Below, piece after piece: positions 3,241 to 47,605 of a DNA stretch of 47,605 bases (its first letter is position 1; each line of letters opens with the position of its first letter). The translations under genes and the position numbers were made by a program. Under the pieces are notes generated by a model that searched no databases, was not told where the DNA came from, and saw only the letters and a program-made list of their open reading frames with translations. This DNA comes from Candidatus Aenigmatarchaeota archaeon (lineage in GTDB: Archaea > EX4484-52): positions 1 to 47,605 of the forward strand of contig JAGLPV010000016.1 in assembly GCA_023137195.1 (NCBI GenBank). Reading direction: 5' to 3'.

Positions 3241-4605
3241 ATGGACTTGGATACAAAGACAATGATAATTGAAAACAACAAATGCGCATGGGGAAAATGC
3301 ATATTTTGTTCATTCAGCAAAAAGCAGAATGTGCAGATTCTTAGCGAAGACAAATTAAAACAATTAATTGAAAACGAATTAGATGGAATAACAACCTTAA
3401 AACAATTAAAATTTTTTAATTCCGGCAGTTTCCTGGATGAGAATCAAATACCCATTCCGGTTCAGGATTTTTTATTAGAAAAATGCAAACAGCTAAAGAC
3501 AGAAGAATTAATTTTCGAGTGCCACCCGATGTTTATTACCGACAAGAACATCAGCAGAATCAGGAAAAAACTAAACGATATTAATTACAGCCCCAAAATC
3601 AATGTTGCAATAGGATTGGAGAGTGCAGATAACACAATCTTAAAAAAAATTAAAAAAGGCATCACAAGAGAAACATACACAAAAGCAGTAGAACTACTAA
3701 AAAAATACAATTTTTATGCAAGAACATATCTGATGGCGAATCTCCCGTATAAAAAAGATTATTCCAAATCATTAAATGATTCTGTTGATTTTGCGCTTCC
3801 AATGAGCGACACAATATGTATAATAAATGCATATCCTTACGGCTATGCAGAATTGTTCGACATCTGGCTTAGCCGAAAATGGCACCCTCTAAACAAAAAT
3901 GAATTTGAAAAAATCACCAAAAAATACAAAAACAACAAAAAAATTGAGATATTTTTTGATGATTTCATTTCCTATCCGAAATTTTCACTTCCTAAGCAAA
4001 AAAAAGTTGATTTGTACGGGGCAAACAAATTCAATCTGACTCATCCATATTACGAAGTATGGCAGGAATACCTTGCAGATTTTTATATCCCTCCAAAAGT
4101 CAAAGAACATGTTTTAATCCTTCCATGCAGTTATAGAAAGCCGTATTCAATGTCAAAGACACACAAGGCAATTATTACACGACTCAAAGGAGCATATAGT
4201 TACGGGAAAATCCACCAAATTATGGTATCCAATCCGGGACTTATCCCGAGAGAGTTTGAGTCCAAATATCCTTTTGCCAAGTATGACTGGCCCGAAGCAC
4301 AGGAAACGCCAAATATAAAAAAATTATATACTGTTGTGACACAGGCAAGAATAGAGAACTATTTAAAAAATCACAAAGATTACTATTCTTACAATTCAAA
4401 AAAGCCTGTTTTTTGCTATCTGAAATACGAAGCAGAATCTTACATTGCATTAAAAAATGCATGCAAAAACCTGGATATTTCTCTAATAAATCTTGTAGAC
4501 AAAGACACATATGACTTGTTTAAAAAACAGGGAATGAAGGACATATTAATCAACGAGATGCTTCTGGACAAGATGTTTTTGGGTCTGGCAAAAAGAAAAC
4601 TATAA
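3241..4605 (+). CDS. Archaeosine biosynthesis fusion: RaSEA-like radical SAM plus ArcS-like domain
   Basis: The 454-residue protein combines two enzymes of archaeosine (G+) formation at tRNA position 15. Residues 1 to about 245 match the RaSEA radical SAM lyase: cluster cysteines C15, C20 and C23, then FNSGSFLDENQIP, ECHPMFITD and VAIGLESADN. Residues about 265-450 resemble the core domain of archaeosine synthase ArcS and contain its signature PCX3KPYX2SX2H at residues 295-308 (P295-C296, K300-P-Y302, S305, H308). ArcS attaches lysine to preQ0-tRNA, and RaSEA then cleaves the adduct to archaeosine. The cluster spacing here is CX4CX2C rather than the common CX3CX2C. PUA and TGT-like parts of full-length ArcS are not seen. 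The family assignment is from motifs; that one chain does both steps is inference. Confidence 0.7.
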   Translation: MDLDTKTMIIENNKCAWGKCIFCSFSKKQNVQILSEDKLKQLIENELDGITTLKQLKFFNSGSFLDENQIPIPVQDFLLEKCKQLKTEELIFECHPMFITDKNISRIRKKLNDINYSPKINVAIGLESADNTILKKIKKGITRETYTKAVELLKKYNFYARTYLMANLPYKKDYSKSLNDSVDFALPMSDTICIINAYPYGYAELFDIWLSRKWHPLNKNEFEKITKKYKNNKKIEIFFDDFISYPKFSLPKQKKVDLYGANKFNLTHPYYEVWQEYLADFYIPPKVKEHVLILPCSYRKPYSMSKTHKAIITRLKGAYSYGKIHQIMVSNPGLIPREFESKYPFAKYDWPEAQETPNIKKLYTVVTQARIENYLKNHKDYYSYNSKKPVFCYLKYEAESYIALKNACKNLDISLINLVDKDTYDLFKKQGMKDILINEMLLDKMFLGLAKRKL

Positions 4606-9181: not shown

Positions 9182-10180
9182 CTAATTAACTACATTCGTA
9201 TAATTTTTATCGCAATAAGATTCAATGTTTTGGGCTGTCGTATCGAGTATCCTTATCAATGCCTCTTTACTATTGAATGCATTATGCAGTGTAAATACAA
9301 CATTATCCATCTTGAATATCCTGTGATCCCGCAAAATCGTTTTCCATTTATCAACATTGTCCTCGTACAACAGCTGTTTTTCTTCTGTTATAAGTTCCTC
9401 TCCTTCAATGACATCAATGCCTGCCCCGGAAAGTATCTTGTTTTCAAGAGCATACAGGAGAGCATCAGTATCAACTATTTGTCCTCTTGCGGTATTTATC
9501 AGTATTGCTCCTTTTTTTATCAGGTGAATTGTTTCTTTATTTATCATATGGTGCGTGTATTTGTTGTAAGGCACATGCAGGGAAATTATATCTGATTTTT
9601 TCAGCAGGTCTTCAAAAGAGCTGTACTCAAAACATAGCACTTCAGACAAAAAAGTCTGCCTGTGCAGGTCATATACCAAAACATTCATGCCAAACCCTTT
9701 TGCTATTTTTGCGACATTCAGCCCAATATGCCCCCCTCCGACAATCCCTATGGTTTTCCCCTTGAGGTCAAAGCCAGTAAGCCCCTCAATAGAAAAATTA
9801 TTCTTGAGCGTCCGGACATAAGATTTATGAACATTTCTTGAAAGAGACATAATAAGCGCAAATGTGTGCTCTGCAACAGTATTTTCTCCGTAATAGGGAA
9901 CATTGCACACAGGAATCTTTTTTTTCTTTGCCTCTTTTACATCTATGTGGTCAAAGCCGGTAGATCTTGTTGCAATCAGTTTAAGGCTTGTTAATTTTTC
10001 AAGAACCTCAACATCAACTTTTGAATAAATAAAGACAGAAATAATGTCAGCGTTTTTTGCCTTCAATATATTGTTTTCATTGAGTTTTTCTTCAAAAAAA
10101 AGAAGGTCGTGTTCCTTTAATTTTTTCTTCAGGTATGCTTTTTCCCACGGCTTTACTTCAAAAAATGCTATTTTTGACAT
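9182..10180 (-). CDS. D-2-hydroxyacid dehydrogenase (D-lactate dehydrogenase-like)
   Basis: The 332-residue enzyme has the NAD-binding motif GGGHIG at residues 148-153 followed by D171, which favours NAD over NADP. Catalytic residues of the family are visible: R232 in NTARGQ, the acidic residue near 259-261 and H299 in TLHNAF. It would interconvert a 2-keto acid such as pyruvate and the D-hydroxy acid; length and the YGENTVAEHTFAL segment suggest the D-LDH subgroup. It sits within the oxygen-stress operon with aaggtg before its ATG. Its link there may be disposal of reductant, which is inference. Confidence 0.9.
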   Translation of the reverse strand: MSKIAFFEVKPWEKAYLKKKLKEHDLLFFEEKLNENNILKAKNADIISVFIYSKVDVEVLEKLTSLKLIATRSTGFDHIDVKEAKKKKIPVCNVPYYGENTVAEHTFALIMSLSRNVHKSYVRTLKNNFSIEGLTGFDLKGKTIGIVGGGHIGLNVAKIAKGFGMNVLVYDLHRQTFLSEVLCFEYSSFEDLLKKSDIISLHVPYNKYTHHMINKETIHLIKKGAILINTARGQIVDTDALLYALENKILSGAGIDVIEGEELITEEKQLLYEDNVDKWKTILRDHRIFKMDNVVFTLHNAFNSKEALIRILDTTAQNIESYCDKNYTNVVN

Positions 10181-10194
10181 TTCAGTTCACCTTT

Positions 10195-11322
10195 TCATAT
10201 TATTATATTGAATATATATCCTAATATTAATATCTGCGGAACAGTTATAAAAGGCAGCCATAATGCTGTTTTTTTCCCGATATTGCTCCATATAAGACCT
10301 ATCTCAGTATAGTCTGTTGCAACACCCGCCATAAGGAAGGTGAAACTGTTTCCAAAAGCTTGTGTCTGGTCAAAGATTTCAAAAGCAAGGACAGAACTTC
10401 CTTCAGAGCACACTTCTATTATTGTCGCAAAGAGTAATGTAACGCCAAGACCCAATAAGGTAGGTCCCATGTATCTGACAAAAAAATCATGAGGCACAAA
10501 TGTTCTTGCAAAAGCAGCCATAATCATTCCAATCAAGATCCACCATACGACCATCTTTGCCAATGCCCACGAACCGCTCATAATTCCATTCACATCCTTA
10601 AAAGAGAACTTATGATTTTTGAATCTTTTTTTCATGTCTTTTATCACTGAAAATTCTTTTTTTATATTAGATGTATTTGGATTTTTTTCTATTTTATTTT
10701 TCTTGTCCAATATCTGGTAAATAAACCCCGTCACAATAGCAATTATTATTGCCGAGACTATCAGGTAAAGGGCATTCGCGCCAAAGAATCCAAACAATAA
10801 AATAGTAATCGGCAGGTTGGCCCATGGAGAAGCCAGTAAAAAGGCAATTACAGCAGGAGGAGAAGCTCCTTTCTTGTAAAGCTCCATGGAAATTGCCAGT
10901 ATTCCGTGAGAACAGGCACTCATAAGGAATCCAAGACCAACAGCATAGAATATTGTTCTTTTTTTACGCCTGGAGAGAAATTTTAAAATATATTCTCTCG
11001 GAACCGAATAATCAATAATTCCTCCGATAAAAAGACCCAAAAGTATTGCCCACCAAACCAGATTAAAATAATCCATAAATGCATTGAAAAACCGGGGCAG
11101 AGTAAAATAACTGACAATCATCAAAACAACAGTTATCAGACCGACAACATATAATTTTTCTTTATACCACGGCAGGGATTTGTCGCAGCTTGCGCATTCC
11201 TTGACATGAGCAATATTATGCTCTTTTTCATATTTCCTTATGCAGTTGTAGGAACAGAAATAATGATTATGCGCCTTAATTGTTCCTTTCATGCCGCATA
11301 CAGGATCTGTTTTGTCTTCCAT
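10195..11322 (-). CDS. Permease (DUF318/ArsP-like) with N-terminal metal-binding domain
   Basis: The 375-residue membrane protein starts with a Cys-rich YHS/TRASH-like domain (DPVCGMKG, HYFCSYNC, CASC; residues 1-50) that is typical of heavy-metal sensing or binding. Eight or so membrane helices follow in two halves, with a charged cytoplasmic linker near residues 205-240. The motifs LLASPWANLPIT and EVCSEGSSVLAF are typical of the DUF318/ArsP permease family, members of which export organoarsenicals or other metal compounds. Its substrate here is unknown. The position between rubrerythrins and the dehydrogenase suggests a role in metal or redox stress. Confidence 0.82.
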   Translation of the reverse strand: MEDKTDPVCGMKGTIKAHNHYFCSYNCIRKYEKEHNIAHVKECASCDKSLPWYKEKLYVVGLITVVLMIVSYFTLPRFFNAFMDYFNLVWWAILLGLFIGGIIDYSVPREYILKFLSRRKKRTIFYAVGLGFLMSACSHGILAISMELYKKGASPPAVIAFLLASPWANLPITILLFGFFGANALYLIVSAIIIAIVTGFIYQILDKKNKIEKNPNTSNIKKEFSVIKDMKKRFKNHKFSFKDVNGIMSGSWALAKMVVWWILIGMIMAAFARTFVPHDFFVRYMGPTLLGLGVTLLFATIIEVCSEGSSVLAFEIFDQTQAFGNSFTFLMAGVATDYTEIGLIWSNIGKKTALWLPFITVPQILILGYIFNIII

Positions 11323-11367
11323 GATTTATGCCGTCAGATACTATAGAATAATATCTGTCGCATTTAC

Positions 11368-11886
11368 CTATTTTAATCTCGCTTCCGAGAGTTCCAGATG
11401 GTCAGTTTCTATTTCAACAAGAGCATCAAATATTTCCTTTAATCTTCTATTATCTGATTCCCGTGATGCTTTACTGTAAAATTCAATAGCATTTGTCTCT
11501 CTCCTGTGAGAATCTTCAAGATTTTCAATATTATCTGTATGGCATATATCCTTTCCTTTTTCAATTGATTTGAGTTTCAGTATTTTCCTCCATATGCTTG
11601 CATGTTCAGCCTCGACTTTTCCAAGTGCCTTGAAAAGGAGTTTCCCCTCTGCATCATCTGTTTGTGAAGCAGCACAGAAATAAAAAGCAGCATTGCTTAT
11701 TTCAACTTCCAAGGCATGTTGGGCATTTTTCCTGTCTGTTTCATTCAGCTCAACATCGAAATCAACTACAGCATTTTTTGCCTCTTTTATGTATTTTCTT
11801 TTTGCCCCGCAAAAAGGGCAGTTTGCAGGCGCTTCATCTCCAACATAGGAGTCGCCGCATATTTCACATCGGTATAATTTTACCAT
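11368..11886 (-). CDS. Reverse rubrerythrin: N-terminal rubredoxin-like domain plus ferritin-like domain
   Basis: The 172-residue protein has the domain order reversed from classical rubrerythrin. Residues 1-33 carry the rubredoxin-like knuckles YRCEICG and NCPFCG, then a four-helix di-iron domain follows with HALEVEISN, VEAEHASIW and HRRETNAIEFY/IETDHLEL as the ligand-bearing helices. It probably reduces hydrogen peroxide using rubredoxin-type electron transfer. I chose the internal MVKLYRCE start at 11886 because it begins 5 nt after the upstream rubrerythrin stop and at the zinc/iron knuckle; a longer frame would overlap that gene. Confidence 0.85.
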   Translation of the reverse strand: MVKLYRCEICGDSYVGDEAPANCPFCGAKRKYIKEAKNAVVDFDVELNETDRKNAQHALEVEISNAAFYFCAASQTDDAEGKLLFKALGKVEAEHASIWRKILKLKSIEKGKDICHTDNIENLEDSHRRETNAIEFYSKASRESDNRRLKEIFDALVEIETDHLELSEARLK

Positions 11887-11891
11887 AAGTT

Positions 11892-12410
11892 TCAAAACAT
11901 GTCCTGTGGCTCGTAATATTCTTTTGGATGCTTGCATGAAGGGCATTCTTCGGGTGGTTCTGTGCCCACATGAATATACCCGCACTTTGAGCATTTCCAT
12001 TTTATTGGTTTTTCTCTTTTGTAGACTGTGCCTTTTTCGACCATCTCAAGCATTTTTATGTATCTTTCCTCGTGCTTTTTTTCAACTTCCGCAATTTCCC
12101 TAAATAATTCTGCGGCTTTGTCATTTCCTTCCTCCTCTGCATCTTTTTGCATCTGAGGATACATCTTTGTATGCTCGTAATTCTCTCCTTCAATCGCATC
12201 CTTCAGGTTTGCTTTTGTATTGCTGATGCCGTTCAATAATTTGAATTCATCCTTTGCGTGTTGCACTTCATTCATTGCAGTTTCCTCGAAAATCTTTGCG
12301 ATGTAGTGGTATCCTTCTTTTCTTGCGACTTTAGCAAAATAAGTGTATTTGTTCCTTGCCTGACTTTCCCCCGCAAAAGCGGCTTTTAAATTTTCTTCTG
12401 TTTTTGACAT
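11892..12410 (-). CDS. rbr: Rubrerythrin
   Basis: The 172-residue protein is a classical rubrerythrin: an N-terminal four-helix di-iron domain (AFAGESQARNKYTYF, ETAMNEVQHAKDEF, AIEGENYEHTKMYP, AEVEKKHEERY) and a C-terminal rubredoxin domain with WKCSKCGY and CPSCKHP. It reduces hydrogen peroxide to water. It is the first gene of the minus-strand oxygen-stress operon. gaggt lies 8 nt before the ATG, and two palindromic sites are present at 12465-12514 upstream. Confidence 0.95.
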   Translation of the reverse strand: MSKTEENLKAAFAGESQARNKYTYFAKVARKEGYHYIAKIFEETAMNEVQHAKDEFKLLNGISNTKANLKDAIEGENYEHTKMYPQMQKDAEEEGNDKAAELFREIAEVEKKHEERYIKMLEMVEKGTVYKREKPIKWKCSKCGYIHVGTEPPEECPSCKHPKEYYEPQDMF

Positions 12411-12464
12411 TATAATTACCTCTATTATATAGTAAATAAATGTTAATAAATGTTTGTGGTTTTT

Positions 12465-12514
12465 TATCGATTATAATCGATAGAATTCGCAAAAATTGTC
12501 GATTATAGTCGATA
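12465..12514. promoter_or_regulatory. Pair of palindromic operator-like sites before the rubrerythrin operon
   Basis: tatcgattataatcgata at 12465-12482 is a perfect 18-bp palindrome. tgtcgattatagtcgata at 12497-12514 is a second copy with the same tcga-6-tcga arms. The copies are offset by 32 bp, about three helical turns, so a dimeric or tetrameric regulator could bind both on one face. They lie between the mazF-like stop and the rubrerythrin promoter. A redox regulator is a plausible ligand; this is inference. Confidence 0.6.
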
Positions 12515-12517
12515 GAT

Positions 12518-12898
12518 TTAACTCTCCAAAATCCCCACAATAGCACTTATCACTTCATTAATCTTTTCATCTGTCAAAGAACCGATTTTATACAATATAA
12601 TAGACTTATCTGCCGTAAATATTCTGTTTGGTCTTATCCTGCTTGTTAAATTTAGATTTCCTTCTTTGAGATCTGAATTTTCAAGAATAACAGAATATTT
12701 ATCATTTCTGTATTTGCTGGTTATCTGGCACAAAATTATGTCCTTTCCTTCTAATTGAGCAACAACCAAAGCAGGTCTTTTCTTGGAATCGCTCAAGTCT
12801 GAAAAAGGAAAAGGCAAAACAACAATATCGCCTTTTACAGTTGTGTATAAACTATATCTTGCGTACAAGTTTAGACACAACATGAAAAAATCCTGCAC
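12518..12898 (-). CDS. MazF/PemK-family toxin
   Basis: The 126-residue protein has the PemK/MazF fold: VKGDIVVLPFPFSD at the N-terminus, KKRPALVVAQ, and the C-terminal SRIRPNRIFTADKSIILYKIG. This family cleaves mRNA at short sites and stalls growth when its antitoxin is lost. The first 20 residues are extra, so the true start may be the second methionine at 12883; both are close to the antitoxin stop 13 nt upstream. The pairing with an AbrB-type antitoxin gene is typical of type II toxin-antitoxin modules. Confidence 0.85.
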   Translation of the reverse strand: MQDFFMLCLNLYARYSLYTTVKGDIVVLPFPFSDLSDSKKRPALVVAQLEGKDIILCQITSKYRNDKYSVILENSDLKEGNLNLTSRIRPNRIFTADKSIILYKIGSLTDEKINEVISAIVGILES

Positions 12899-12911
12899 AA
12901 TCTAAAAAAAA

Positions 12912-13199
12912 TCAAATCCGCGGGATTTTTGCTTGGTCTTTCCATGCTTCGTCCTCTTCTTTTGTGTTCCAGTCCTTTGCCAGCACTTTTTGGCTTGCCA
13001 AAGCGCATTCTCTTTTTTCGTCCAAATTTTCCAAAGAAGACTCTATCTGTCCCATGGGTCTTAATTCAATGTGGTCATCATAAGATAGGATAGTGATTTT
13101 TGAACCTTCCTTAAAACCGCTTGCTTTTCTTATGTCTATCGGAATGGCAATCTGACCTTTTTTCGTGATGGTTGCTGTCTTTATTTCTTTTAATAACAT
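12912..13199 (-). CDS. AbrB/MazE-type antitoxin
   Basis: The 95-residue protein has an N-terminal swapped-hairpin AbrB DNA-binding domain (TATITKKGQIAIPIDIRKA, residues 7-26, then GSKITILSYDDHIELRPM) and an acidic C-terminal tail that would embrace the toxin. I start it at 13199 because the AbrB domain begins there; a longer frame adds 16 unlikely residues that cross the TATA box. Promoter elements lie at 13206-13240. It is the first gene of the toxin-antitoxin pair. Confidence 0.87.
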   Translation of the reverse strand: MLLKEIKTATITKKGQIAIPIDIRKASGFKEGSKITILSYDDHIELRPMGQIESSLENLDEKRECALASQKVLAKDWNTKEEDEAWKDQAKIPRI

Positions 13200-13205
13200 A
13201 TTATT

Positions 13206-13240
13206 CTTATATGTAATACAAGTAAGAAAATTATATAAAT
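13206..13240 (-). promoter_or_regulatory. Antitoxin promoter with palindrome over the start site
   Basis: On the minus strand a TATA box (plus-strand ttatataaat, 13231-13240) is followed by the imperfect palindrome cttatatgtaatacaagtaag at 13206-13226, which would cover the transcription start before the ATG at 13199. This is the expected place for autorepression by an AbrB-type antitoxin. Confidence 0.5.
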
Positions 13241-35213: not shown

Positions 35214-36536
35214 TTACGGGAAATTCATTTGCTCGCTCATCAAAAACAACCATGCAGGAATGAACAGAATCTTTCCTCCATTTATTTTTTGTTCTTCAAA
35301 ATAATTTCTGGTAACGACAATGCCTTTCCTGGCTTTATATTCCTCCATAAAAAACAGGACATTTTGAAAATCTTCTTTTCTTATTGTTGAACGGTATTTT
35401 ACCTCTATCGGCAAAGGGTTTTTTTTGCCCAATATTATGTCAACCTCGCGGCTTTTTTTGTCCTGCCAGTAAGATGGTCTGTTGGAATATTTTAACAGGT
35501 GATTAAAAACGCATGTTTCTACAACAAGACCCGTTTGAGTCCCGTTAAGCAAAAAAAGAGCATTGTCCGCAACATAGATTTTCGGGTTCTTTTCGAAAGT
35601 TTTTCTTGTGCTTTTTGAGAAAAACAAGCTTTTTTGTATCATAAAAGAAGTATCCAGATAGTCAATATATGTTTTGATGGTTTCAAATTTCGTCTTCAGG
35701 GAAAAGGAGAGATTATTGTAATTTACTGTATTTCCTGACTCTTTTACAAAACAATAGAATAATCCTTCCATTATGTCTGTTCTTTTTATGTTGAATATAT
35801 TTACAATATTCCTGTAAAAAGTCAGATCAATTATTGTTTTGACGGCTTGTTTTAACTGCGACTCTTCCAGTTCGTACAGCCCGGGAAGCCCGCCAATTTT
35901 AAGATAGTTTTCAAATAAAATCTTTATTTTTTCTGCTTCCGGAGGGTATTTTATGTTGTATATGGACATTGCCCCCGGGTTTATTCCATTGTATTTTAAA
36001 TATTCCCTGAAAGAGAACGGGTAAATCTTATGGATGTTGATTCTGCCGATTAAACTTTCTCCGCCGCCTTTCAGGATATTCATGCTCGAAGAGCCGGAAA
36101 TAAAAATTTTCAGGGGGTATTCCTTGTCATAAAATGATTTTAAATCTTCGCTCCAGTCTTTTATTTTCTGCACTTCATCAAAAAATAAGTATATTGTGTC
36201 TTTCAATTCATAGGCTGGTTTTTTTAATATTCTGCTAAAATACAGGAAGATTATCTTTTTGATGATCTTTTCTTCTTTGATTGAGTCAAAAGAGAAATAC
36301 AGGATGTTCTTTTTGTTGATGTTGTTATTTAACAGGTGATTTATTTGCTGTTTGAGGATGGTTGTTTTGCCAATTTGTCTTAAGCCTATTAGCCCGGTTA
36401 TTTGCTTTGATTTTAATTCATTGATGAGTTGAGGGTATATGTCGCGGGTTATTAGGTTGTCTTTTAGTTTTATTTTTCCGTCACGCCACCATGGGTTTTG
36501 TTCTGTTAGTTCGGTTAATAGTTCTTCTTCGTTCAT
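35214..36536 (-). CDS. AAA-family ATPase with DUF4143 domain
   Basis: The 440-residue protein is an AAA_14/DUF4143 ATPase, a group abundant in archaea. Walker A is LIGLRQIGKTTIL near residue 50, Walker B is TIYLFFDEVQKIKDW, and sensor ISGSSS follows. The C-terminal DUF4143 domain has YVADNALFLLNG and the nuclease-like EVDIILGK/LPIEVKY, which echoes a PD-(D/E)xK core. The biological role of this family is uncertain. The gene has a TATA box and a perfect palindromic operator directly upstream. Confidence 0.88.
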   Translation of the reverse strand: MNEEELLTELTEQNPWWRDGKIKLKDNLITRDIYPQLINELKSKQITGLIGLRQIGKTTILKQQINHLLNNNINKKNILYFSFDSIKEEKIIKKIIFLYFSRILKKPAYELKDTIYLFFDEVQKIKDWSEDLKSFYDKEYPLKIFISGSSSMNILKGGGESLIGRINIHKIYPFSFREYLKYNGINPGAMSIYNIKYPPEAEKIKILFENYLKIGGLPGLYELEESQLKQAVKTIIDLTFYRNIVNIFNIKRTDIMEGLFYCFVKESGNTVNYNNLSFSLKTKFETIKTYIDYLDTSFMIQKSLFFSKSTRKTFEKNPKIYVADNALFLLNGTQTGLVVETCVFNHLLKYSNRPSYWQDKKSREVDIILGKKNPLPIEVKYRSTIRKEDFQNVLFFMEEYKARKGIVVTRNYFEEQKINGGKILFIPAWLFLMSEQMNFP

Positions 36537-36919: not shown

Positions 36920-39900
36920 ATGATTTCAAAAAACATCAGGGATTTAACTTTTATTACGAATGAAGAAGGAAATAAGTTATCCGATAAGTTTAGTATCCTT
37001 CTTAAAAATACAAAATTTTTTGATTGTTTGGTAGGATATTTCTATACGAGCGGATTTCATGCAATGTATAAATCTCTTGAAAATACAGATAAAATCAGAA
37101 TTTTAATTGGCATTAGTACGGATAGAAAAACATACGAATTAATTCAAGAAGCTGAAAATTCAGAATCTCAAATACAATTAGGTTTTTCAAGCAAGGAAGC
37201 AAAAACTCATTTTTCTGATAAAATAGTTGAGGAGATGAATAATTCTAAAGATTCAAAAAATGTAGAAGACGGTATTTTGAAATTTATTGGATGGCTGAAA
37301 TCGAAAAAGTTAGAGATTCGGGTTTATCCAGCAGAAAAAATTCACGCTAAATTATATATTATGACTTCCAGTGGAGGGGGTTTTGGAGATAAAGGTAGGG
37401 TGATAACAGGTTCTAGTAATTTTACAAAATCAGGATTAAATGATAATCTTGAGTTTAATGTTGTTCTGCAAAGACCAGAGGATTATGAATTTGCTTTAGA
37501 AAAGTTTGAGGGATTATGGGAAGATTCAGTTGATGTTTCTGAAAAATACATTGAAACTATTAAAACAAAGACTTGGCTAAATGATGAAATTACACCCTAT
37601 GAATTATTTTTGAAATTTTTGTATGAATACCTAAAAGAGAAGATACAATTAGATCAAAACCAGCTTTCTGATGATTTTAAACCTGAAAATTATATGAAAT
37701 TAAAATATCAGGAAGATGCGGTTTGGGATGCAAAGCAGAAATTAGATGAGTTTGGAGGAGTATTTATTTCTGATGTTGTAGGTTTGGGTAAAACATATAT
37801 GGCAACAATGTTAGCTCAAGAATTAAGGTGCAAAGTTTTGGTTCTTGCACCACCAATCCTATTAAATGATAATAATCCTGGTTCATGGCCTAATGCTTTT
37901 AGAGATTTAAGGGTTGGAGGGGTTTATTTTGAGTCATTGGGAAAATTGGATAATGTATTGAAAAGAGGCACGGAGAAATATGATGTTGTAATTATTGATG
38001 AAGCTCATAGATTTAGGACAGAAACTACACAAATGTATGAAAAGCTCTATAAAATTTGTAGAGGAAAAAGAGTTATTTTGGTTACAGCAACACCATTAAA
38101 TAATACGCCCATGGATATTCTTGCTCAAATAAAATTATTTCAAAATGCCCATAAATCAACATTGCCTAATCCCAAAGTAAGAGATTTAGAAAAATACTTT
38201 AAATCTCTTCAAGCAAAATTAAAAAATCTTCATAGGCAAGAAAATAAAGAAGATTACCTTAAAATTGTTCAGGAGAATGCAGAAGATATCAGAAAAAATG
38301 TTTTAAAACATTTAATGGTTAGAAGGACAAGAACCATGATTGATAATTATTATAAAAAAGATTTAGAAAAACAGAAATTAAAATTTCCGAAGATAAAAGA
38401 ACCAGAGGCAGTAATATATAATTTTTCAGAACAAACAGATAAAATATTTTTCAAAACATTAGAATTAATTGTTCATAAATTTAAATATTCTCGATATACA
38501 CCATTACTTTACTTAAAGGAAGAACTTCCAGAAAACCAACAAACACCTCAAAAGAATATGGGAAAATGGATGAAGATTCTCTTAATGAAACGATTAGAAA
38601 GCAGTTTTTATGCTTTTAAGAAATCAATTTCAAGATTTATTTATTCCTATACGAGATTTTTAGAAGAGTATAAAAACGGCAAAGTTTTCATTAGTGAGAA
38701 ATATACTTCTAAAGTATTTGAACTTTTGGAAGACGAGGATTTTGATGCTGTTGATAAATTAATTACTGAAGATAAAGCTAAAAAGATTGATTCAAGTAAA
38801 TTCACAAAGGGTTTTATTGATGATCTTAAGGCAGATTTAGCCATTCTTGAAGATGTTAATTTAATGTGGCGTGATGTTGATATAGATCCAAAGCTTGAAA
38901 CTTTTATTGAATTATTAAAAAATAATAAAATTCTTAAGGAAAATAAAATGATTGTATTCACAGAATCAAAGGAAACTGCTCAATATTTAGAATCTAAATT
39001 AAATCCTATATTTAATAACAAAGTTATTTCTTATTCTAGTGTTTCTGGAGAATCAACAAGAGAAAAGATTATTGATAATTTTGATCCTGCATCAAAGTCA
39101 AAAAAGAATGATGTAAGAATATTAATTTCAACAGAAATTTTATCTGAAGGCGTAAATTTGAATAGGTCTAATATTGTAATTAATTATGATATCCCTTGGA
39201 ATCCAATAAGAATGATGCAACGAGTAGGGCGTATAAACCGAGTTGGAAAAAATCTTCCTTTTGATGAAATTTATACTTATAATTTCTTTCCTGCCGGACC
39301 TATTAATGAGCAGATAAGTTTGACAGAGGCAGCAGAAGTAAAAATTCAATCATTTATAGAAATGCTTGGAAATGATGCGAAACTTCTTACTAATGAAGAG
39401 GTAAAATCTCATGAATTGTTTAAAAGATTAAATTCTAAAGAAATTTTAACTGGTGAAGAAGAAACAGAAGATATGGAATTAGAATGGCTTTTGAAGTTAA
39501 GAAAGATTAGAGATAACAAACCAGAACTTTTTGAAAAAATTAAAAGATTGCCAAAAAAATCAAGGACCTCAAGAAAAATGACCACAGAATTTGGACTTTT
39601 TACATTTTTTAAGAAGGGCAAATTAAGAAAATTATATTTTAATAATGGCAGATTTATTAATGAAATTGATTTTGATAAAGCTGTTGAAATGTTAAATGCA
39701 AAACCAACAGATAAAAAGATGAAATTAGCCTCTGATTTTTATAAGATGCTTAAACAGAATAAAGAAGAATTTAGTGACTTCTTCATAAATGAAGCAGATG
39801 CTCAAAAAGGAGGGAGTAAAGGACATGAAGGAAAGATTAAAAAAATCGTGAAAGCGATATTAAAGAAACCAGATGGATTAACTGATGATGATGAGGACTA

Positions 39901-40129
39901 TTTGAAAAATATACTAAACCTTATTCAAGATGGCGTAATTCCAAAAGAAACCCTGAAAAGAATAAATAATGCAATCAAAAAAGAAGAAATCAATCCCTTA
40001 AAGATATTTGCGAAAATTAAAGTTATTATCCCAGAGAATTCTGAATTTTTCAAAGAAACATATGCGAGTTTTTCAGGAAATATTGAAGGTCCAAAAGAGG
40101 TAATTTTATCGGAGATGTTTATAAAATGA
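36920..40129 (+). CDS. PLD-nuclease/SNF2-type helicase fusion
   Basis: The 1069-residue protein begins with a phospholipase D-like domain carrying one HxK catalytic motif (IHAKLYIM, H142 and K144) followed by GSSNFTKSGL at about residues 164-173. A superfamily 2 helicase follows: Walker A DVVGLGKT at 285-292, DEAH box near 360, VTATPLNN near 388, and motifs V/VI in SEGVNLNRSNIVINYDIP and MMQRVGRINRVG near residues 740-775. A charged C-terminal region of about 290 residues ends the protein. PLD domains in restriction enzymes cut DNA, and the helicase would translocate on it. I chose ATG 36920; a TTG ten codons earlier is less likely. It overlaps the next gene by 4 nt (ATGA). Confidence 0.9.
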   Translation: MISKNIRDLTFITNEEGNKLSDKFSILLKNTKFFDCLVGYFYTSGFHAMYKSLENTDKIRILIGISTDRKTYELIQEAENSESQIQLGFSSKEAKTHFSDKIVEEMNNSKDSKNVEDGILKFIGWLKSKKLEIRVYPAEKIHAKLYIMTSSGGGFGDKGRVITGSSNFTKSGLNDNLEFNVVLQRPEDYEFALEKFEGLWEDSVDVSEKYIETIKTKTWLNDEITPYELFLKFLYEYLKEKIQLDQNQLSDDFKPENYMKLKYQEDAVWDAKQKLDEFGGVFISDVVGLGKTYMATMLAQELRCKVLVLAPPILLNDNNPGSWPNAFRDLRVGGVYFESLGKLDNVLKRGTEKYDVVIIDEAHRFRTETTQMYEKLYKICRGKRVILVTATPLNNTPMDILAQIKLFQNAHKSTLPNPKVRDLEKYFKSLQAKLKNLHRQENKEDYLKIVQENAEDIRKNVLKHLMVRRTRTMIDNYYKKDLEKQKLKFPKIKEPEAVIYNFSEQTDKIFFKTLELIVHKFKYSRYTPLLYLKEELPENQQTPQKNMGKWMKILLMKRLESSFYAFKKSISRFIYSYTRFLEEYKNGKVFISEKYTSKVFELLEDEDFDAVDKLITEDKAKKIDSSKFTKGFIDDLKADLAILEDVNLMWRDVDIDPKLETFIELLKNNKILKENKMIVFTESKETAQYLESKLNPIFNNKVISYSSVSGESTREKIIDNFDPASKSKKNDVRILISTEILSEGVNLNRSNIVINYDIPWNPIRMMQRVGRINRVGKNLPFDEIYTYNFFPAGPINEQISLTEAAEVKIQSFIEMLGNDAKLLTNEEVKSHELFKRLNSKEILTGEEETEDMELEWLLKLRKIRDNKPELFEKIKRLPKKSRTSRKMTTEFGLFTFFKKGKLRKLYFNNGRFINEIDFDKAVEMLNAKPTDKKMKLASDFYKMLKQNKEEFSDFFINEADAQKGGSKGHEGKIKKIVKAILKKPDGLTDDDEDYLKNILNLIQDGVIPKETLKRINNAIKKEEINPLKIFAKIKVIIPENSEFFKETYASFSGNIEGPKEVILSEMFIK

Positions 40130-41463
40130 GATTTAGCGAGAATGAAACTTTAGAGCTGAAGAAATCAACTTCAGAATTAAAAGAAGGAATAATTTCTATT
40201 GTTGCTATTCTTAACAAACATAATTCAGGAGAGTTAATTTTTGGAATTAATCCAAAAGGAGATGTAAATGGACAACAAGTTTCAGAAAAAACAATTAGAG
40301 ATATCTCTCAAAAGATTGCAAGTTCAATAGAGCCAAAAATTTATCCGGAAATCAATAAAAAAATAATTGAAAGCAAAGATTGCGTAATTGTTAAGTTTAT
40401 GGGCGATGAACCAATCTATTATGCGGAAGGAAAAGCATATATTCGGGTTGGAGATGAAGATAGGCAGATGTCTGCCAAAGAGATTGAAAAACGAATAATC
40501 TCAAAAAGTAGCATGAGATGGGATTCAAAACCTTCTGACAAAAAAATAACAAATGTTAATGAAGAACTGCTTAAAAAATATTTTTCTGAAGCTAAAAATG
40601 CAGGCAGAATTAGTTTTTCTTATTCTAATAAAAAAAGTGTTCTTGAAAAACTTGAGTTAATTCATGGAGATTATTTAGTAAATGCAGGAAAGATCCTTTT
40701 TTGTGATGAGAATTCATTGGAAGTTCAAAGTGCAGTTTTTGCCGGAACGGACAAAAATACATTTCTCGATATAAAAGATAAAACCGGAAATCTTCTTGAT
40801 TTAATTGATTTTTCCGAAAATTACATTAAAGAGCATATTAATTGGAGAGCGGATTTATCCAGCAGTACCAGAATGGAGATTCCAGAAATACCAATAAGAG
40901 CTATATCTGAAGCATTAGTAAATTCATTTTGTCATAGAGATTATACTGCACCAGAGAGCAATAAAGTTGCGATATACAAAAATAGGGTTGATATATGGAA
41001 TCCAGGAGAATTTCCTTCTGATTTCAAACCTATGGATTTTATAAAAAAAGATTTGCCATCAATTCTTAGAAATCCTAAAATTGCTAAAATTTTGTACTAT
41101 AATAAGAAAATTGAAAGGTGGGGTTCTGGATTAAAAAGGATTTATGATGAATGCAAAACTCACAATGTTAAGGTTGAATTCAAGGTTTTAAGCTATGGAT
41201 TTAGCGTTATTTTTTATCGGACACAAATCGAACAGGAATTAGCTGCAAATCGGACACAAATCGGACACAAATCGGACGCTGAAACAAGGCAAAAATGGAT
41301 TCTTGATTATTTGAAACAAAAGAGTATAATTAAAAGTATGGAGATTATTAATAAATTTAAAGTCGTAAAAGATACTGCTTCTCATGATTTGAATAATCTG
41401 ATTGAGGAAGATAAAATTGTTAAAAAAGGAGCAGGAAATAATGTGTGGTATGAGTTAAAATGA
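40126..41463 (+). CDS. AlbA_2/Schlafen-like ATPase regulator with C-terminal winged helix
   Basis: The 445-residue protein has an N-terminal AlbA_2 (Schlafen AAA_4-like) domain (ENETLELKKS to YIRVGDEDRQMS, residues 1-120), a middle GHKL-type ATPase segment with AISEALVNSFCHRDY and VDIWNPGEFP (about residues 255-300), and a C-terminal winged helix from residue 390 on. This family often works as a regulator or partner in defence loci. A tandem 11-bp repeat lies in its gene at 41251-41277. Start and stop overlap both neighbours by 4 nt. Confidence 0.85.
   Translation: MRFSENETLELKKSTSELKEGIISIVAILNKHNSGELIFGINPKGDVNGQQVSEKTIRDISQKIASSIEPKIYPEINKKIIESKDCVIVKFMGDEPIYYAEGKAYIRVGDEDRQMSAKEIEKRIISKSSMRWDSKPSDKKITNVNEELLKKYFSEAKNAGRISFSYSNKKSVLEKLELIHGDYLVNAGKILFCDENSLEVQSAVFAGTDKNTFLDIKDKTGNLLDLIDFSENYIKEHINWRADLSSSTRMEIPEIPIRAISEALVNSFCHRDYTAPESNKVAIYKNRVDIWNPGEFPSDFKPMDFIKKDLPSILRNPKIAKILYYNKKIERWGSGLKRIYDECKTHNVKVEFKVLSYGFSVIFYRTQIEQELAANRTQIGHKSDAETRQKWILDYLKQKSIIKSMEIINKFKVVKDTASHDLNNLIEEDKIVKKGAGNNVWYELK
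41251..41277 (+). repeat. Tandem 11-bp repeat inside the AlbA_2 gene
   Basis: The unit cggacacaaat occurs twice in full plus the first 5 bases of a third copy, and a further copy of cggacacaaatcg lies at 41218-41230. The unit length is not a multiple of three, so gain or loss of one copy would shift the frame and remove the winged helix. Confidence 0.7.
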
Positions 41464-44400
41464 ATGAAGAACAGGCAAAATTGCTATTGGATGAGACATT
41501 TAATAAAGAGTTTAATATTTCAAGATTTTCGAATTTTTTAAAAGAATTAGTGAATACTTCAAATTTATTTTCTCAGGATAAAAGTCAATTTATTCCAAGA
41601 CAATTTAAGGATTACATTCTTGGAGTTACAAAGATAGGGCAATATAAAGACAATGCAGGAAAATCAATGGAACTTCTTGCCATAAAACTTGCGAAACATT
41701 CTTCTCTTGAAAGAGCAAGAACCATGCAGAGAAATTTTATAGCTAAATGGCTTTCAAATAATCCTGCTGAACCCGAAGGTGCCATTGTGGCATTTTATGA
41801 TGATGAACAAGATTGGAGATTTTCTTTTGTAAAATTAGAGTATACTCTTATTAAAGACGATAAAGGCAATCTAAAGGGGGAAAAAGAACTTACTCCTGCA
41901 AAAAGATATTCATTTTTAGTGGGGCGTAATGAACCAAATCATACTTGTAAAAAACAATTTGTGGATTTACTATCTGATAAACAGGATCCTTTATTCAATG
42001 AAATTGAAAATGCATTCAGTATTGAAAAGGTCACTAAAGAATTTTTTGAGAAATACAAAAATTTATTTTTGAGATTAAAAGAATCATTGCAAGAAGTAAT
42101 TGAAAAAAATTCTATTGTAAAAGATGAGTTTCTAAGGATTGCCGGAAACGATAAAGGCGAGCTTGAAAAGTTTGTAGTTGAGTTTTCAAAAAAATTGCTG
42201 GGGCAGATAGTTTTTCTTTATTTTCTGCAAAAGAAAGGATGGCTTGGAGTTCAAAAAGAGAGCAATGGAAAATTTAAAAAATGGGGAACCGGACCAAAAG
42301 ATTTTATGAAGCGGTTGTTCAATAAAGAATACGGATGTTATAATAATTTCTTTAATGATATATTGGAGTATTTATTTTATGATGCACTTGCAAGAAAAAG
42401 AGATCAGGATATACATAAATTTAATTCATTTGAATTTAAGATTCCTTTCTTAAATGGCGGTTTATTTGAGCCATTAGATGGCTATGACTGGGTAAACACA
42501 AACATCTACATTGAAAATGCAATATTCGAGGATATCTTCAAAACATTTGATGAATTTAATTTTACCGTAAAAGAAGATGAGCCATTGGAAAAAGAGGTTG
42601 CTGTTGATCCAGAAATGCTTGGAAAAGTTTTTGAGAATCTTTTGGGGGTGATCGATAGAAAATCAAAAGGGGCATTTTATACACCCAGAGAGATAGTGTA
42701 TTATATGTGTCGGCAATCTTTGATTAATTACCTGGAAACAAATACTTCTATTCTAAGGGGTGATATTGAGAAGTTTATCCAACTGGGAGATATTACAATA
42801 TCTACCAATATAAGAACATTGGACGAAATTAAAGAATTGGAAAAAAAAATGATCTCTGGTTTTGTTTCTGCAGAGGAATTTGGCAAAAAAATAAAAGAGC
42901 ATTCAGAAAAATTAGATATTCCATTAAGTATTGTCAGAAATAAAGAAAAAATTGACAATTTGCTTGAGACAATAAAAGTTGTTGATCCAGCTGTTGGCTC
43001 AGGGGCATTTCCTATTGGAATGATGAATGAAATAGTTAAGGCAAGGTCTATTTTATCCATTTTCTTGGGAAATGAAAGAGAGGTTTCTGATTTAAAAAGA
43101 CATTGTGTTGAAAATTCGCTTTATGGCGTTGATATTATGCCTTCTGCTGTAGATATATGCCAATTAAGATTTTGGTTGTCTTTGATAGTTGATGAGGATG
43201 ATAAAGATAAAGTAAAACCGCTTCCTAATCTGGACAATAAAATCATGTGTGGAAATTCATTATTAGAAGAGTTTGAGGGCGTAAAATTATTTGATGAGAG
43301 TCTGCTTGCAGAAGAAATCAAAGATATTCGCCCTGAACTCGATAGAATTGATAAAGAAATTAAAGAAACATATTTGAAGATTGGAGAGATAGAAAGAAGA
43401 GACCTTAAAGAAGACAGAACTAAACTTAAAAGAGAAATTAAAAAGTTGGAAAAGCAAAAAAAAGAGCTTCAATGCAAGCCGGAGAATACCGAGAGGAATT
43501 TGACTCTTGGGGAAATTGGAAAACAAAAGATTAAAGAATCTAAGCTAAAATTAGCTAAAATTCAGAATTTGCAAAAAAAATTATTCAATGAATATGATAG
43601 AGATAAGAAAACGGCGCTTAATAAAGAAATAGATAAGTTTGAATGGGATCTAATTGAAGTTACTTTAATGGAACAGAATAATGAAAAAGCTCTAGAAAAA
43701 CTAGAGAAAATAAAGAAAAGCAAATCAAAACCATTCTTCTTGTGGAAATTATACTTTTCAGAAGTCTTCCAAAGAGAAGATCCTGGTTTTGATGTTGTTA
43801 TTGCTAATCCTCCCTATTTGAGAGAGAAAGGGAATAAAGAAGTATTTGAAATTGTAAATAATTCGATTTTTGGTAAAAAATACCATCAAGGTAAAATGGA
43901 TTATTGGTATTATTTTTTACACAAAGCAATCGATATAGTTAGATTTAAAGGAAATATTGCTTATATCACCTCTAGATATTGGCTAAATAGCCATGGTTCT
44001 AAAAAACTAATTAATAGAATTAAGGGAGAACTTGTGTTTACAAATTTTATTGATATTGGGAAACTGAAAGTATTTGATAATGTAGTGGGGCAACATATGA
44101 TAGCCGTATACAAAAAAGATAATTTGCCCAATAAATTTATCTATAAGAAATTAGTAGATAATCTTGATGGAATAAATTCAAACTCAAATCCTCCAAATGT
44201 CGAGATAAGAACATTAAATAACGATAAGTTAATTGATGATGGAGAAATTATTTTACAAGTAGATTTTATTAATACAGATGGCACTATTCTTTTAGGAGAT
44301 ATCTGTAATACCTCGATTGGTATTCAAGAATCTGTTGATAAGATTAGCAGAAAGCAAATTGAGAACACAAAAAGGAAAGATATAGATGCTGGTAAAGGTG

Positions 44401-45125
44401 TTTTTGTTTTAACTCAAAAAGAAGTTGCAAAACTTGGCTTGAACGAAGAAGAAAAAAAGATTATAAAAAAATATGTTGATCCAAATGATATATATCGATA
44501 CAGTATAAGTCAAAAGAATAAGAAATATATAATCTATTCAGACAATTTAACCAAAAACAAAATTGCTAAAGATAAAGCCCATGTACATATCAAATCTCAC
44601 TTAGACAATTTAAACGAATTTATTACATCTTCAAATAAGCCGTATGGACTACATAGACCTCGGGAAGTAAAATATTTTACTATACCTAAGATAATATTTA
44701 AGGGCATGTTTAGAAAGAATGAGTTTTGTTATGATGAAAGTAGGTATTTTGTTGGTTTTTCGTTCTCAACAATCATTCAGAAAGATAAAAATTATTCTTT
44801 AAAATATATTTTGGCAATTTTAAACTCAAAACTTGCGTTACATTGGTTTTACAAAAACGGTAAACTGAGAGGTGGAGGGGTAGATATTGGTACTTTAAAA
44901 CTCAGGAAGTTTCCAATAAAGATAATTTCTTCAGAGCAACAAATACTATTTATCCACTTGGTAGACCAAATCCTTTCAATCACAAAAGATGACGATTATT
45001 TAGATAATCCCGACAAACAGGTAAAAGTCAAAAGATTGGAAAAAGAGATTGATGCACTGGTCTATAAATTATATGAACTGACTCATGAGGAGATAAAGAT
45101 TGTTGAGGGATTTGGTGAAAAATGA
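41460..45125 (+). CDS. Eco57I-type N6-adenine DNA methylase, possible restriction-modification enzyme
   Basis: The 1221-residue protein has a gamma-type adenine methylase core: AdoMet motif I DPAVGSGAF at residues 509-517, the preceding GAFYTPREIVYYM near 400-412, IMPSAVDICQLRFWLSL near 560, and catalytic NPPY at 783-786. A charged coiled coil of about 140 residues (roughly 617-760) is inserted between motif I and motif IV. The N-terminal 400 residues show no nuclease motif I can name, and the C-terminus is like the TaqI/Eco57I specificity region. It marks adenine in DNA; cleavage may be done by the PLD-helicase. Overlaps both neighbours by 4 nt. Confidence 0.9.
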   Translation: MNEEQAKLLLDETFNKEFNISRFSNFLKELVNTSNLFSQDKSQFIPRQFKDYILGVTKIGQYKDNAGKSMELLAIKLAKHSSLERARTMQRNFIAKWLSNNPAEPEGAIVAFYDDEQDWRFSFVKLEYTLIKDDKGNLKGEKELTPAKRYSFLVGRNEPNHTCKKQFVDLLSDKQDPLFNEIENAFSIEKVTKEFFEKYKNLFLRLKESLQEVIEKNSIVKDEFLRIAGNDKGELEKFVVEFSKKLLGQIVFLYFLQKKGWLGVQKESNGKFKKWGTGPKDFMKRLFNKEYGCYNNFFNDILEYLFYDALARKRDQDIHKFNSFEFKIPFLNGGLFEPLDGYDWVNTNIYIENAIFEDIFKTFDEFNFTVKEDEPLEKEVAVDPEMLGKVFENLLGVIDRKSKGAFYTPREIVYYMCRQSLINYLETNTSILRGDIEKFIQLGDITISTNIRTLDEIKELEKKMISGFVSAEEFGKKIKEHSEKLDIPLSIVRNKEKIDNLLETIKVVDPAVGSGAFPIGMMNEIVKARSILSIFLGNEREVSDLKRHCVENSLYGVDIMPSAVDICQLRFWLSLIVDEDDKDKVKPLPNLDNKIMCGNSLLEEFEGVKLFDESLLAEEIKDIRPELDRIDKEIKETYLKIGEIERRDLKEDRTKLKREIKKLEKQKKELQCKPENTERNLTLGEIGKQKIKESKLKLAKIQNLQKKLFNEYDRDKKTALNKEIDKFEWDLIEVTLMEQNNEKALEKLEKIKKSKSKPFFLWKLYFSEVFQREDPGFDVVIANPPYLREKGNKEVFEIVNNSIFGKKYHQGKMDYWYYFLHKAIDIVRFKGNIAYITSRYWLNSHGSKKLINRIKGELVFTNFIDIGKLKVFDNVVGQHMIAVYKKDNLPNKFIYKKLVDNLDGINSNSNPPNVEIRTLNNDKLIDDGEIILQVDFINTDGTILLGDICNTSIGIQESVDKISRKQIENTKRKDIDAGKGVFVLTQKEVAKLGLNEEEKKIIKKYVDPNDIYRYSISQKNKKYIIYSDNLTKNKIAKDKAHVHIKSHLDNLNEFITSSNKPYGLHRPREVKYFTIPKIIFKGMFRKNEFCYDESRYFVGFSFSTIIQKDKNYSLKYILAILNSKLALHWFYKNGKLRGGGVDIGTLKLRKFPIKIISSEQQILFIHLVDQILSITKDDDYLDNPDKQVKVKRLEKEIDALVYKLYELTHEEIKIVEGFGEK

Positions 45126-46033
45126 AAATAACCCAGAAAGTACGTGATTATCTCGCAGATCCAGATTTGTCTAAAGTGTTTTATAATGAGATTAGACTTG
45201 ACTTTGAACAAATAAAATCTGATGATGATGAAATTTTAGGTCTGTTTCATATTAATTTTCAAAAATTAAGAGGGGGAGAAGATTTTTTGGATGGATATTA
45301 TAATTATGAAGATAAAAAAATAGTCTATAATAAAGAGTTAGAATTACTTTTTATTAAAATTGAAGAAATTTTTATAATAGTATCATTAAATAAAGAAAAC
45401 ATTCAAAATTTAGTAGACAAAATTAATAAGAGTAAATTAAAGAACTTTTTTGTTCTTTCAGAGATTAAAGACTTAAAAAATTCTTCTTTTTCTATATTAT
45501 TTTATCCTTTTTTGTTAGAAGAATTTATTAATACAAAAAATAATTATACTATCGATTTTTATAACAAATTAAGCCTATCAATAAATGCATTTAGAACCGG
45601 ATTAAAAGATGATAATCAATTATATTATTATATGTCATTTATCTTACTTAGTTCTCTTTTAGAGGAATTGTTTATTTATATTGCTAAAAAAGAAAACATT
45701 TCTTTAGACAAAACTTATAGTATTGGTGATTGTATTGATAAATTGGAAGGAAAAATGTCTTTAATAGTTAAACATCCTGATGCTGTAAGAGAGAATAATG
45801 GAGAAAAAGAATTAATTGTATATTCTGAGCAAAACAATTCTAATAATCTATTTTCTAAAAACGATAAGCACATTGGAAAAAAGATAATTAAATTGCTTAA
45901 TGAAATTAAAGATATTAGAACAAAATATGTGCATTTTGTTTCGCAGAAACCTAATAATCCCTCAGATAATTTAATTGGAATAGTAAATTTTGGTCAGTTT
46001 TTAGTATGGTGTGAAAATAATGGTTACTTATAA
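45122..46033 (+). CDS. HEPN-like protein of unknown function
   Basis: The 303-residue protein begins inside the stop of the methylase gene (ATGA). The N-terminal half has an alpha/beta look with no recognised motif. The C-terminal half is helical and ends with IRTKYVHF, where R266 and H271 form an Rx4H pattern typical of HEPN RNase-like domains; this is compatible with a tRNA- or mRNA-cleaving toxin but is only a motif match. Its place in the operon suggests an effector or accessory protein of the defence system. Confidence 0.6.
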   Translation: MKITQKVRDYLADPDLSKVFYNEIRLDFEQIKSDDDEILGLFHINFQKLRGGEDFLDGYYNYEDKKIVYNKELELLFIKIEEIFIIVSLNKENIQNLVDKINKSKLKNFFVLSEIKDLKNSSFSILFYPFLLEEFINTKNNYTIDFYNKLSLSINAFRTGLKDDNQLYYYMSFILLSSLLEELFIYIAKKENISLDKTYSIGDCIDKLEGKMSLIVKHPDAVRENNGEKELIVYSEQNNSNNLFSKNDKHIGKKIIKLLNEIKDIRTKYVHFVSQKPNNPSDNLIGIVNFGQFLVWCENNGYL

Positions 46034-47605
46034 TCAAGAACGGGAAAGAGAAAAAATAAAACAAACAATGGATACTGAATATGAAAATATGTATCCGTTC
46101 GAAATAGAAAAAGAGTTATCCTCAATATTCAAATCTGCTGATGAAAATAAAGACGAACAATTAAAACAAGAGGTTTTATGGGAAATTGATTTAATAAATC
46201 GTGCTTTTGGGCATAAAGGAACTTATCAAGGAAAAGAAATTGTTGAAATCAGCAACAAATGGGATTATTTCATAGATGCAGTAAGATTTAAGCCATTTTC
46301 AAATCCTCCTTTTTGTGAGTGGAAAAAGGAAGCTGTTGATTATTACAAAGGAAGATATGGTCAAACAGAAAGCAATCTGACCAAAGCGAGGTATGCTTTT
46401 GCAGTTATGGTTTTTTCTTCTGGGCAGGATAAGATTAATTGGATGAAAAAATCTGTCATTAATTGGCTAAAATGTGCTGAAAAATATGTTGCAGAGGAAA
46501 AGTACAATAAAAAATATTATGAAGTACCTCCTTTTGCATATGAATTTGTTTTGAAACTAACCATTTCATTCCGAAAAAAGGATCTGGCTAAAGAGGCTTT
46601 AGATTCGTTACATAAAAGCATAATAACAATCTTGGATTCTGGAGAAAAGAGATGGCATTTAGAGTTTTTAGAAGTAGAATCAAAATATATCAATTCATTT
46701 GTTAATATTGATGAAATAAAAAAGGAAAGTACAGATAAAATTAAAGAGATTATTAAGCGGTTAGAATCTGAGTTTGAAAAAAGTGAAGACAAACAAAAAA
46801 GTAATCATTTTGTAAGAAGCCACATTAACATTTTATTGAATTATAAAACTGAAGATGATTATGTTTTGAATGAAAAAATTGCTGAATCTCATATTGTAGA
46901 AGCAGAAGCCAGAGATGAGCCTATTGTTAAATCTTCTTTTTACAATGATGCTATTAAGAAATACAAAGCCATGCAAAGCTCTTATGTATGTAAAAAAGAA
47001 ATTATTGAAAAAAGAATTAATGAATTAATCTTAAAAAGTAAAAAGATAAATTCCAAAATAACATACCAGCAGTTTCAAACCAAAATAAGTATCACTAAAG
47101 AACAGATGGATTCATATTTAACTCATCTAAAATCTCAAAAAAAAGATTTATTGATTGCATTTTTAGACGATTTTTCATTGTTTCCCAAATATGAACAAAC
47201 TAAAAAAATGAGTGAAGAACAGAAAAAACATCATCCTCTTCAATTCATAATGCCTATAATGATTTATAATATTGAAGAACCAATTATGAAAATAACTTCT
47301 GAAACAGATATTTTTAACTATCAAGTTAGAAGGAATATTTTATTAGAATTAAAAATGGGTGAGATTATGTGCAAAACTACAATAGAATCATTAAAAAAAG
47401 AATTAGGTGCTGAGATATCCAAGACTATAGAAAAGTTAATTAGTCAGGATGAATTAAAAAATATTAAACCAACATTAAAGATAGGTTTTGATTATGTATT
47501 TGGAGAACAAAAGGATGATGTTGCCAGTTTGCATATTCTTACTCCATATATCGAAGAAGTAATAAGATTACTTCTCAAAAAAGCAGGAAAGGTTGAAGTT
47601 GTATT
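46020..47605 (+). CDS. DUF4209-like protein, 3' end cut by window
   Basis: A frame from the ATG at 46020 stays open for 528 codons to the last base of the window. The start overlaps the HEPN-like gene by 14 nt; the ATG at 46068 is an alternative start. The protein is helical and Lys/Glu-rich. Near the end SLHILTPYIEEVIRLLLKK resembles the start of DUF4209, a domain that continues to an Rx4-6H (HEPN-like) motif beyond the window. I could not test that homology. If real, this would be a second HEPN-type effector in the same operon. Confidence 0.75.
   Translation, partial: MVTYNQEREREKIKQTMDTEYENMYPFEIEKELSSIFKSADENKDEQLKQEVLWEIDLINRAFGHKGTYQGKEIVEISNKWDYFIDAVRFKPFSNPPFCEWKKEAVDYYKGRYGQTESNLTKARYAFAVMVFSSGQDKINWMKKSVINWLKCAEKYVAEEKYNKKYYEVPPFAYEFVLKLTISFRKKDLAKEALDSLHKSIITILDSGEKRWHLEFLEVESKYINSFVNIDEIKKESTDKIKEIIKRLESEFEKSEDKQKSNHFVRSHINILLNYKTEDDYVLNEKIAESHIVEAEARDEPIVKSSFYNDAIKKYKAMQSSYVCKKEIIEKRINELILKSKKINSKITYQQFQTKISITKEQMDSYLTHLKSQKKDLLIAFLDDFSLFPKYEQTKKMSEEQKKHHPLQFIMPIMIYNIEEPIMKITSETDIFNYQVRRNILLELKMGEIMCKTTIESLKKELGAEISKTIEKLISQDELKNIKPTLKIGFDYVFGEQKDDVASLHILTPYIEEVIRLLLKKAGKVEVV

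Follow-up and report, generated by a model that had tools for sequence, protein, structure and literature searches.

The plasmid pLd8 of Lactococcus lactis carries two genes, orf33 and orf34, that were assigned in 2018 to a restriction–modification (R–M) system on the basis of their domains (PMC6098607). A PLD–SNF2-helicase is encoded beside an adenine methylase with a TaqI_C domain; the methylase, which has no recognized nuclease, was filed as Type IIG by REBASE, and the HKD site of the helicase was argued to be the nuclease of the pair (PMC6098607). Type-2 BR systems also combine an N-terminal HKD nuclease on an SNF2 helicase with an N6-methylase, but require a DUF499 ATPase and nearly always include DUF3780 (PMC12839542). 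In the PbeABCD/CxC-ABC-ATPase systems, a fusion of an HKD nuclease to an SF2 helicase, joined in some loci by a methylase, is found with ABC-ATPase, DndE-like and small-protein partners (PMC10853773). Class 1 DISARM (DrmD + DrmMI) pairs an SNF2 helicase and an adenine methylase of related families with a separate PLD protein, DrmC, while Type IIG enzymes hold the methylase and the recognition region in one chain. A PLD nuclease, an SF2 helicase and a methylase also make up the NgoAVII/CglI-type ATP-dependent enzymes, with the B3 recognition domain on the PLD protein and the helicase as a polypeptide of its own.

The locus described here lies in the window, by which we mean the whole 47,605-nucleotide stretch of DNA that was analyzed, and probably encodes an ATP-dependent two-protein R–M system of the pLd8 kind, followed and interrupted by passenger defense genes. 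The locus would then be a local elaboration of an already known type of immune system and not a new five-gene system. Both pLd8-type features, the PLD–SNF2/SF2 fusion and a co-conserved Eco57I/TaqI_C methylase neighbor, were found, whereas the AlbA, P4 and P5 genes of the window have no counterpart in the description of pLd8 (PMC6098607). In a Lactococcus relative (L020), the helicase is 26% identical over half of the protein and the methylase 31% identical over 496 residues, so the pLd8-type Lactococcus pair is regarded as a distant relative. The original prediction, that the genes could not be matched to a named system, has to be revised, since the architecture of the core pair was already published (PMC6098607) and PADLOC models match both proteins.

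Organization of the locus

ORF calling on the window yielded five ORFs on the plus strand, arranged head to tail between 36920 and 47605. The two core genes are P1 (36920–40129; 1069 aa, with an alternative TTG start at 36890), for a fusion of a PLD (HKD) nuclease with an SNF2-type SF2 helicase, and P3 (41460–45125; 1221 aa), for an N6-adenine DNA methylase with a TaqI_C-like target-recognition region. In the slot between them lies P2 (40126–41463; 445 aa), which encodes an AlbA_2 (Schlafen-like)–GHKL ATPase–winged-helix protein and appears to be an exchangeable passenger. P3 is followed by two further passenger genes, P4 (45122–46033; 303 aa), a possible HEPN protein with the motif R266-x4-H271, and P5 (46020–47605; 528 aa read, with an alternative GTG start at 46011), of the DUF7380/DUF4209 type. 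Start and stop codons overlap as ATGA at 40126, 41460 and 45122, and P4 and P5 overlap by 14 nt, in agreement with the original prediction. The five-gene chain is not a chance arrangement, because the frames are long and overlapping and four of the five have significant profile matches. The contig ends at 47605, which leaves P5 open at its 3′ end and places any downstream gene past the stretch read. Pfam supported the domains previously called for genes 1–3; the call for gene 5 was reached indirectly, through a relative, and that for gene 4 stayed weak, with an RTKYVH motif only.

An AAA_14/DUF4143 ATPase gene (35214–36536, minus strand) lies upstream of the operon in divergent orientation and matches the PADLOC candidate PDC-S01 (8e-68). 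Proteins of this type are a common unvalidated defense candidate in archaea (PMC12988326). Elsewhere in the window, a Radical_SAM–DUF5591 protein is encoded at 3241–4605, one of the features that suggest an archaeal source of the DNA.

Conservation of the helicase and methylase

We compared the locus with 80 related loci, the best 80 of 392 relatives obtained by scanning genome contigs with an alignment of the methylase alone and two peptide patterns; frequencies among these loci are neither a census nor population frequencies. The loci span many bacterial and archaeal phyla. A helicase (identity up to 76%) lies beside the methylase in 75 of the 80. Where it is absent, four loci (L029, L052, L075 and L079) begin at a contig start less than 300 bases from the start of the methylase, and in the fifth (L089; methylase at 10001–13222), no helicase was found in the 10 kb read upstream, which counts against reading the two genes as a pair. 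The L089 gene is a possible orphan methylase. The gap between helicase and methylase is at most about 160 bp in 48 of the 75 loci, often with overlapping genes, and the other 27 have an insert between them. Distances between helicases and between the N-terminal parts of the methylases correlate with r = 0.78 over 1891 pairs, a descriptive value, given that related sequences do not yield independent pairs.

With P1 and P3 as queries, searches of plasmids likewise returned a mobile pair with changing neighbors. Prevotella oral taxon 299 has the helicase–AlbA–methylase order of the window and Parabacteroides an AlbA–helicase–methylase order, while in Microcystis, Planktothrix, Natrinema, Deinococcus, Pelobacter and Synechocystis, the pair occurs with other inserts or none. 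On the Synechocystis plasmid pSYSX (L022, 17237–19488), genes for ThiF, E2/UBC-like and multiubiquitin-domain proteins adjoin the pair. Synechocystis slr6095 had been considered as a characterized member and was dropped, because it is placed in a Type I system in the literature. In a genome of the same phylum as the window (G033, contig C10; L005 and L013), a similar helicase and methylase, at about 30% identity, are encoded a few kb from each other.

P1 matched PLDc_2 (2e-12; a single PLD domain), ResIII/SNF2 and Helicase_C (4e-21) in Pfam, and the C3a139 "HKD+Snf2" model in PADLOC (2.6e-45). The motifs are intact: H142, K144, G164-SSN167, E178 and N180 of the HKD site are invariant in 68 of 68 aligned helicases, and of the helicase residues tested, only position 362 (A/S) varies among the 68 sequences. 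As there is one HKD motif per chain, the active site would be built by two chains. The score of P1 against the DrmD model was 145.9 bits, with a cut-off of 610.

The match to DrmD, and one to HmaA, together with matches of P3 to the DrmMI and PglX models, might suggest that the locus is what remains of a BREX-related (type-2 BR/Hma-like) or DISARM-like system after loss of its other parts, and type-2 BR loci do pair an HKD–SNF2 helicase with an N6-methylase (PMC12839542). However, the scores are far below the cut-offs (146 vs. 610 bits for DrmD and 61 vs. 500 bits for PglX), and the hallmark families, which the original prediction had reported as missing, had no match in the genome, which is 84.8% complete: DUF499 (PF04465; contig ends leave a small gap), PglZ (PF08665) and MZB/DUF1998 (PF09369, the DrmB type). 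Of 50 genomes that carry the methylase of the pair, 41 likewise gave no DUF499 match, and DUF3780 was not found in a Pfam scan of the five proteins. Here, in contrast to DISARM, the PLD domain is fused to the helicase, and the ABC-ATPase, DndE-like and small-protein partners of PbeABCD (PMC10853773) were not seen among the five genes. Hma was rejected as a match, as HmaB is an m5C methylase and HmaC an ATPase according to the PADLOC paper and DUF499 is missing here. By these profile searches, membership in BREX, DISARM or the DUF499-type BR/Hma systems fails, and we consider a reduced form of any of them quite improbable.

The methylase and its target-recognition region

P3 matched Eco57I (6e-25) and TaqI_C (3e-13) in Pfam. 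The DPAxGSG motif is invariant or nearly so in 74 methylases, and NPPY is present in 71–73 of the 74. The nearest solved structures are 7lni/8cxz, listed as adenine-specific methyltransferase, BseCI and BrxX; we take 7lni/8cxz to be CamA. The domains and motifs of P1 and P3 thus resemble those of a nuclease–helicase and a self-marking adenine methylase, as had been proposed.

The best PADLOC model for P3 was REase_MTase_IIG (7e-169), which would fit a stand-alone Type IIG enzyme with the helicase as an unrelated neighbor. The predicted alpha–beta order of the first domain is compatible with a nuclease core, although an inactive nuclease fold would also fit. Pfam detected no nuclease domain in P3, however, and the well-conserved N-terminal part retains no D...(E/D)xK set, position 73, after D/E71, being Leu. 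An AlphaFold model of residues 1–495 (pLDDT 84) gave chance-level matches only, none of the PDB folds reaching E ≤ 0.001. Moreover, the helicase is a nearly constant partner that co-varies with the methylase and adjoins it in 75 of 80 loci, so a stand-alone enzyme is very unlikely. On this sequence evidence, the HKD site of the helicase is a better candidate for the nuclease than the methylase chain. Annotation with a current library would label only the methylase, as Type IIG, and overlook what is probably the restriction subunit.

The variable target-recognition region of P3 (approximately 44130–44939, plus strand; aa 891–1160) has a mean column conservation of 0.30, compared to 0.72 in the methylase core. 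Its evolution is decoupled from that of the rest of the pair: the mean distance is 0.78, and the distances correlate weakly with all else (r = 0.13–0.18; about 0.15 with the helicase), as would be expected if specificities are exchanged. In three relatives, identified from annotations and inverted repeats, the region appears to be invertible. In L031 (7572–10164), a 37-bp perfect inverted repeat spanning GFDIVIGNPPYI is present in the methylase and in a spare module on the opposite strand, with a serine recombinase gene adjacent. L016 (10925–13662) is built in the same way, its inverted repeat being 47 bp long and 96% identical, and it too encodes an invertase. In L139 (7755–9540), an invertase gene and a spare TaqI-like specificity gene accompany an inverted repeat of 321 nt and 71% identity. 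In all three loci, the repeats cover or follow the NPPY region of the methylase, with spare recognition modules on the opposite strand and a serine recombinase in the vicinity. The apparent inversion modules are strong circumstantial evidence that the C-terminal region of the methylase sets the target.

For the two-protein system that we favor, we propose that P3 would use its TaqI_C-like region to recognize an asymmetric site and would mark host DNA with N6-methyladenine. On unmarked DNA, P1, guided by P3 in a presumed complex, would spend ATP on translocation along or remodeling of the DNA, and its metal-independent HKD nuclease would then cut. Against guidance by P3, the helicase itself could read sites or methylation. 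P2 may be an exchangeable component that regulates the system or serves as a back-up effector. P4 and P5 may be passenger effectors that work independently or provide a fallback. The pair occurs in a wide range of bacterial and archaeal phyla, with apparently invertible specificity in some hosts and swappable effectors, and naming and testing it would correct defense-system counts, notably in archaea and candidate phyla.

Slot and downstream genes

An AlbA-ATPase gene occupies the slot between helicase and methylase in 10 of the 75 loci with both genes. Other slot genes encode Bro-N, ORF6N, NYN, TumE, DUF1016, DUF3800, an IS200-like transposase or AAA proteins. The downstream genes are hypervariable and include Gabija/OLD-like ATPases, DarT, macro, GmrSD, SIR2, DUF488, KAP and UvrD. 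From one locus to another, most slot and downstream genes show no relationship, and many belong to known defense or toxin types. The cargo slots are a place to seek uncharacterized effectors such as P4.

P2 matched SLFN_AlbA_2 (1e-15), HATPase_c_4 (5e-15) and HTH_DeoR in Pfam. Two Schlafen acids, E5 and E10, are present, and the third (in G-x-x-D) is replaced by Pro; the positions of the E-E-D triad are, we assume, those of SLFN13. Because of this replacement, an RNase activity of P2 is doubtful, and a regulatory role is as likely. The AlbA protein of the window is 27% identical to that of L037, compared to 59% for the helicases, and the corresponding values for L062 and L083 are 25% and 72%. 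In a closer pair, L071 and L083, the AlbA genes are still similar (63%), and overall the AlbA and helicase identities correlate with r = 0.62. Since the divergence of the AlbA gene far exceeds that of the helicase, it has presumably been replaced between close relatives, which indicates that the AlbA-ATPase is swapped rather than travelling with the helicase.

P4 had no significant match in Pfam, PADLOC or NCBIfam, and as a query found no relatives in genome contigs, viral contigs or plasmids. The HEPN hint consists of one motif, R266-TKYV-H271, with no profile match, and a single-sequence structure model was unusable (pLDDT 38.7). A 304-aa gene after the methylase in Parabacteroides was considered as kin of P4, with no detectable relation. 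P5 had no Pfam match of its own but matched the single-gene PADLOC candidate PDC-S39 (1.8e-15). It had no relatives in viral contigs or plasmids and three (L106, L107 and L108) in 371 genomes of the phylum of the L023 host. The archaeal L106 protein (592 aa) has DUF7380, below cut-off, and DUF4209, while L107 and L108 have DUF4209. The part of P5 that was read ends before DUF4209, which would lie past the contig end, and the family label is given through L106.

These results bear on the earlier proposal that all five genes form one evolved unit, in which the methylase and helicase would restrict, the AlbA-ATPase would sense failure, and the HEPN-like and DUF4209 proteins would kill the cell. 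In favor of it are the tight overlaps at all four junctions, the recurrence of AlbA-ATPase genes in the slot, and the reported back-up effector role of Schlafen-type and HEPN RNases in BREX and BR loci (PMC12839542). A combination of restriction with abortive infection is conceivable. However, P4 and P5 had no match in any of the 80 related loci, and P2, which lacks one of the three Schlafen acids, is far more divergent than the helicase and seemingly replaced between close relatives. Proteins resembling P5 are also encoded elsewhere, with no such pair in the sequence read around them, and match a single-gene PADLOC candidate. Gene order in the 80 related loci thus keeps the helicase and methylase, largely not gene 2, and not genes 4 and 5, and we regard a true five-gene system as unlikely.

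The P2 gene contains an 11-nt tandem repeat in the linker (41246–41277, plus strand; unit AATCGGACACA, 2.9 copies), in which a change in copy number would shift the frame and truncate the protein. An 11- or 12-nt repeat is present in 9 of 13 R–M slot genes (the window, L024, L037, L062, L094, L096, L100, L007 and L009), and a repeat with a 12-nt period in 18 of 30 AlbA_2–ATPase–winged-helix genes sampled from one archaeal phylum (L109–L138). In such genes, the repeats lie mostly between the ATPase and the winged helix. The units are unrelated in sequence between AlbA genes, and the repeats score up to 54, compared to at most 14 in codon shuffles of the slot genes. A literature search found no paper naming a tandem repeat of AlbA_2–ATPase–winged-helix genes. 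We offer, as a speculation with a rather small chance of being correct, that the pair represents a widespread unnamed R–M class with two plug-in positions: an inner slot exchanging repeat-bearing AlbA-ATPase regulators, where 11-nt slippage would toggle the DNA-binding end of the regulator and so tune or silence restriction, and an outer slot for fallback killers. In L070 (8149–9618), the slot gene has another N-terminus (FISSVQKELTEER, DUF4062-like by eye) before the same ATPase, a domain swap.
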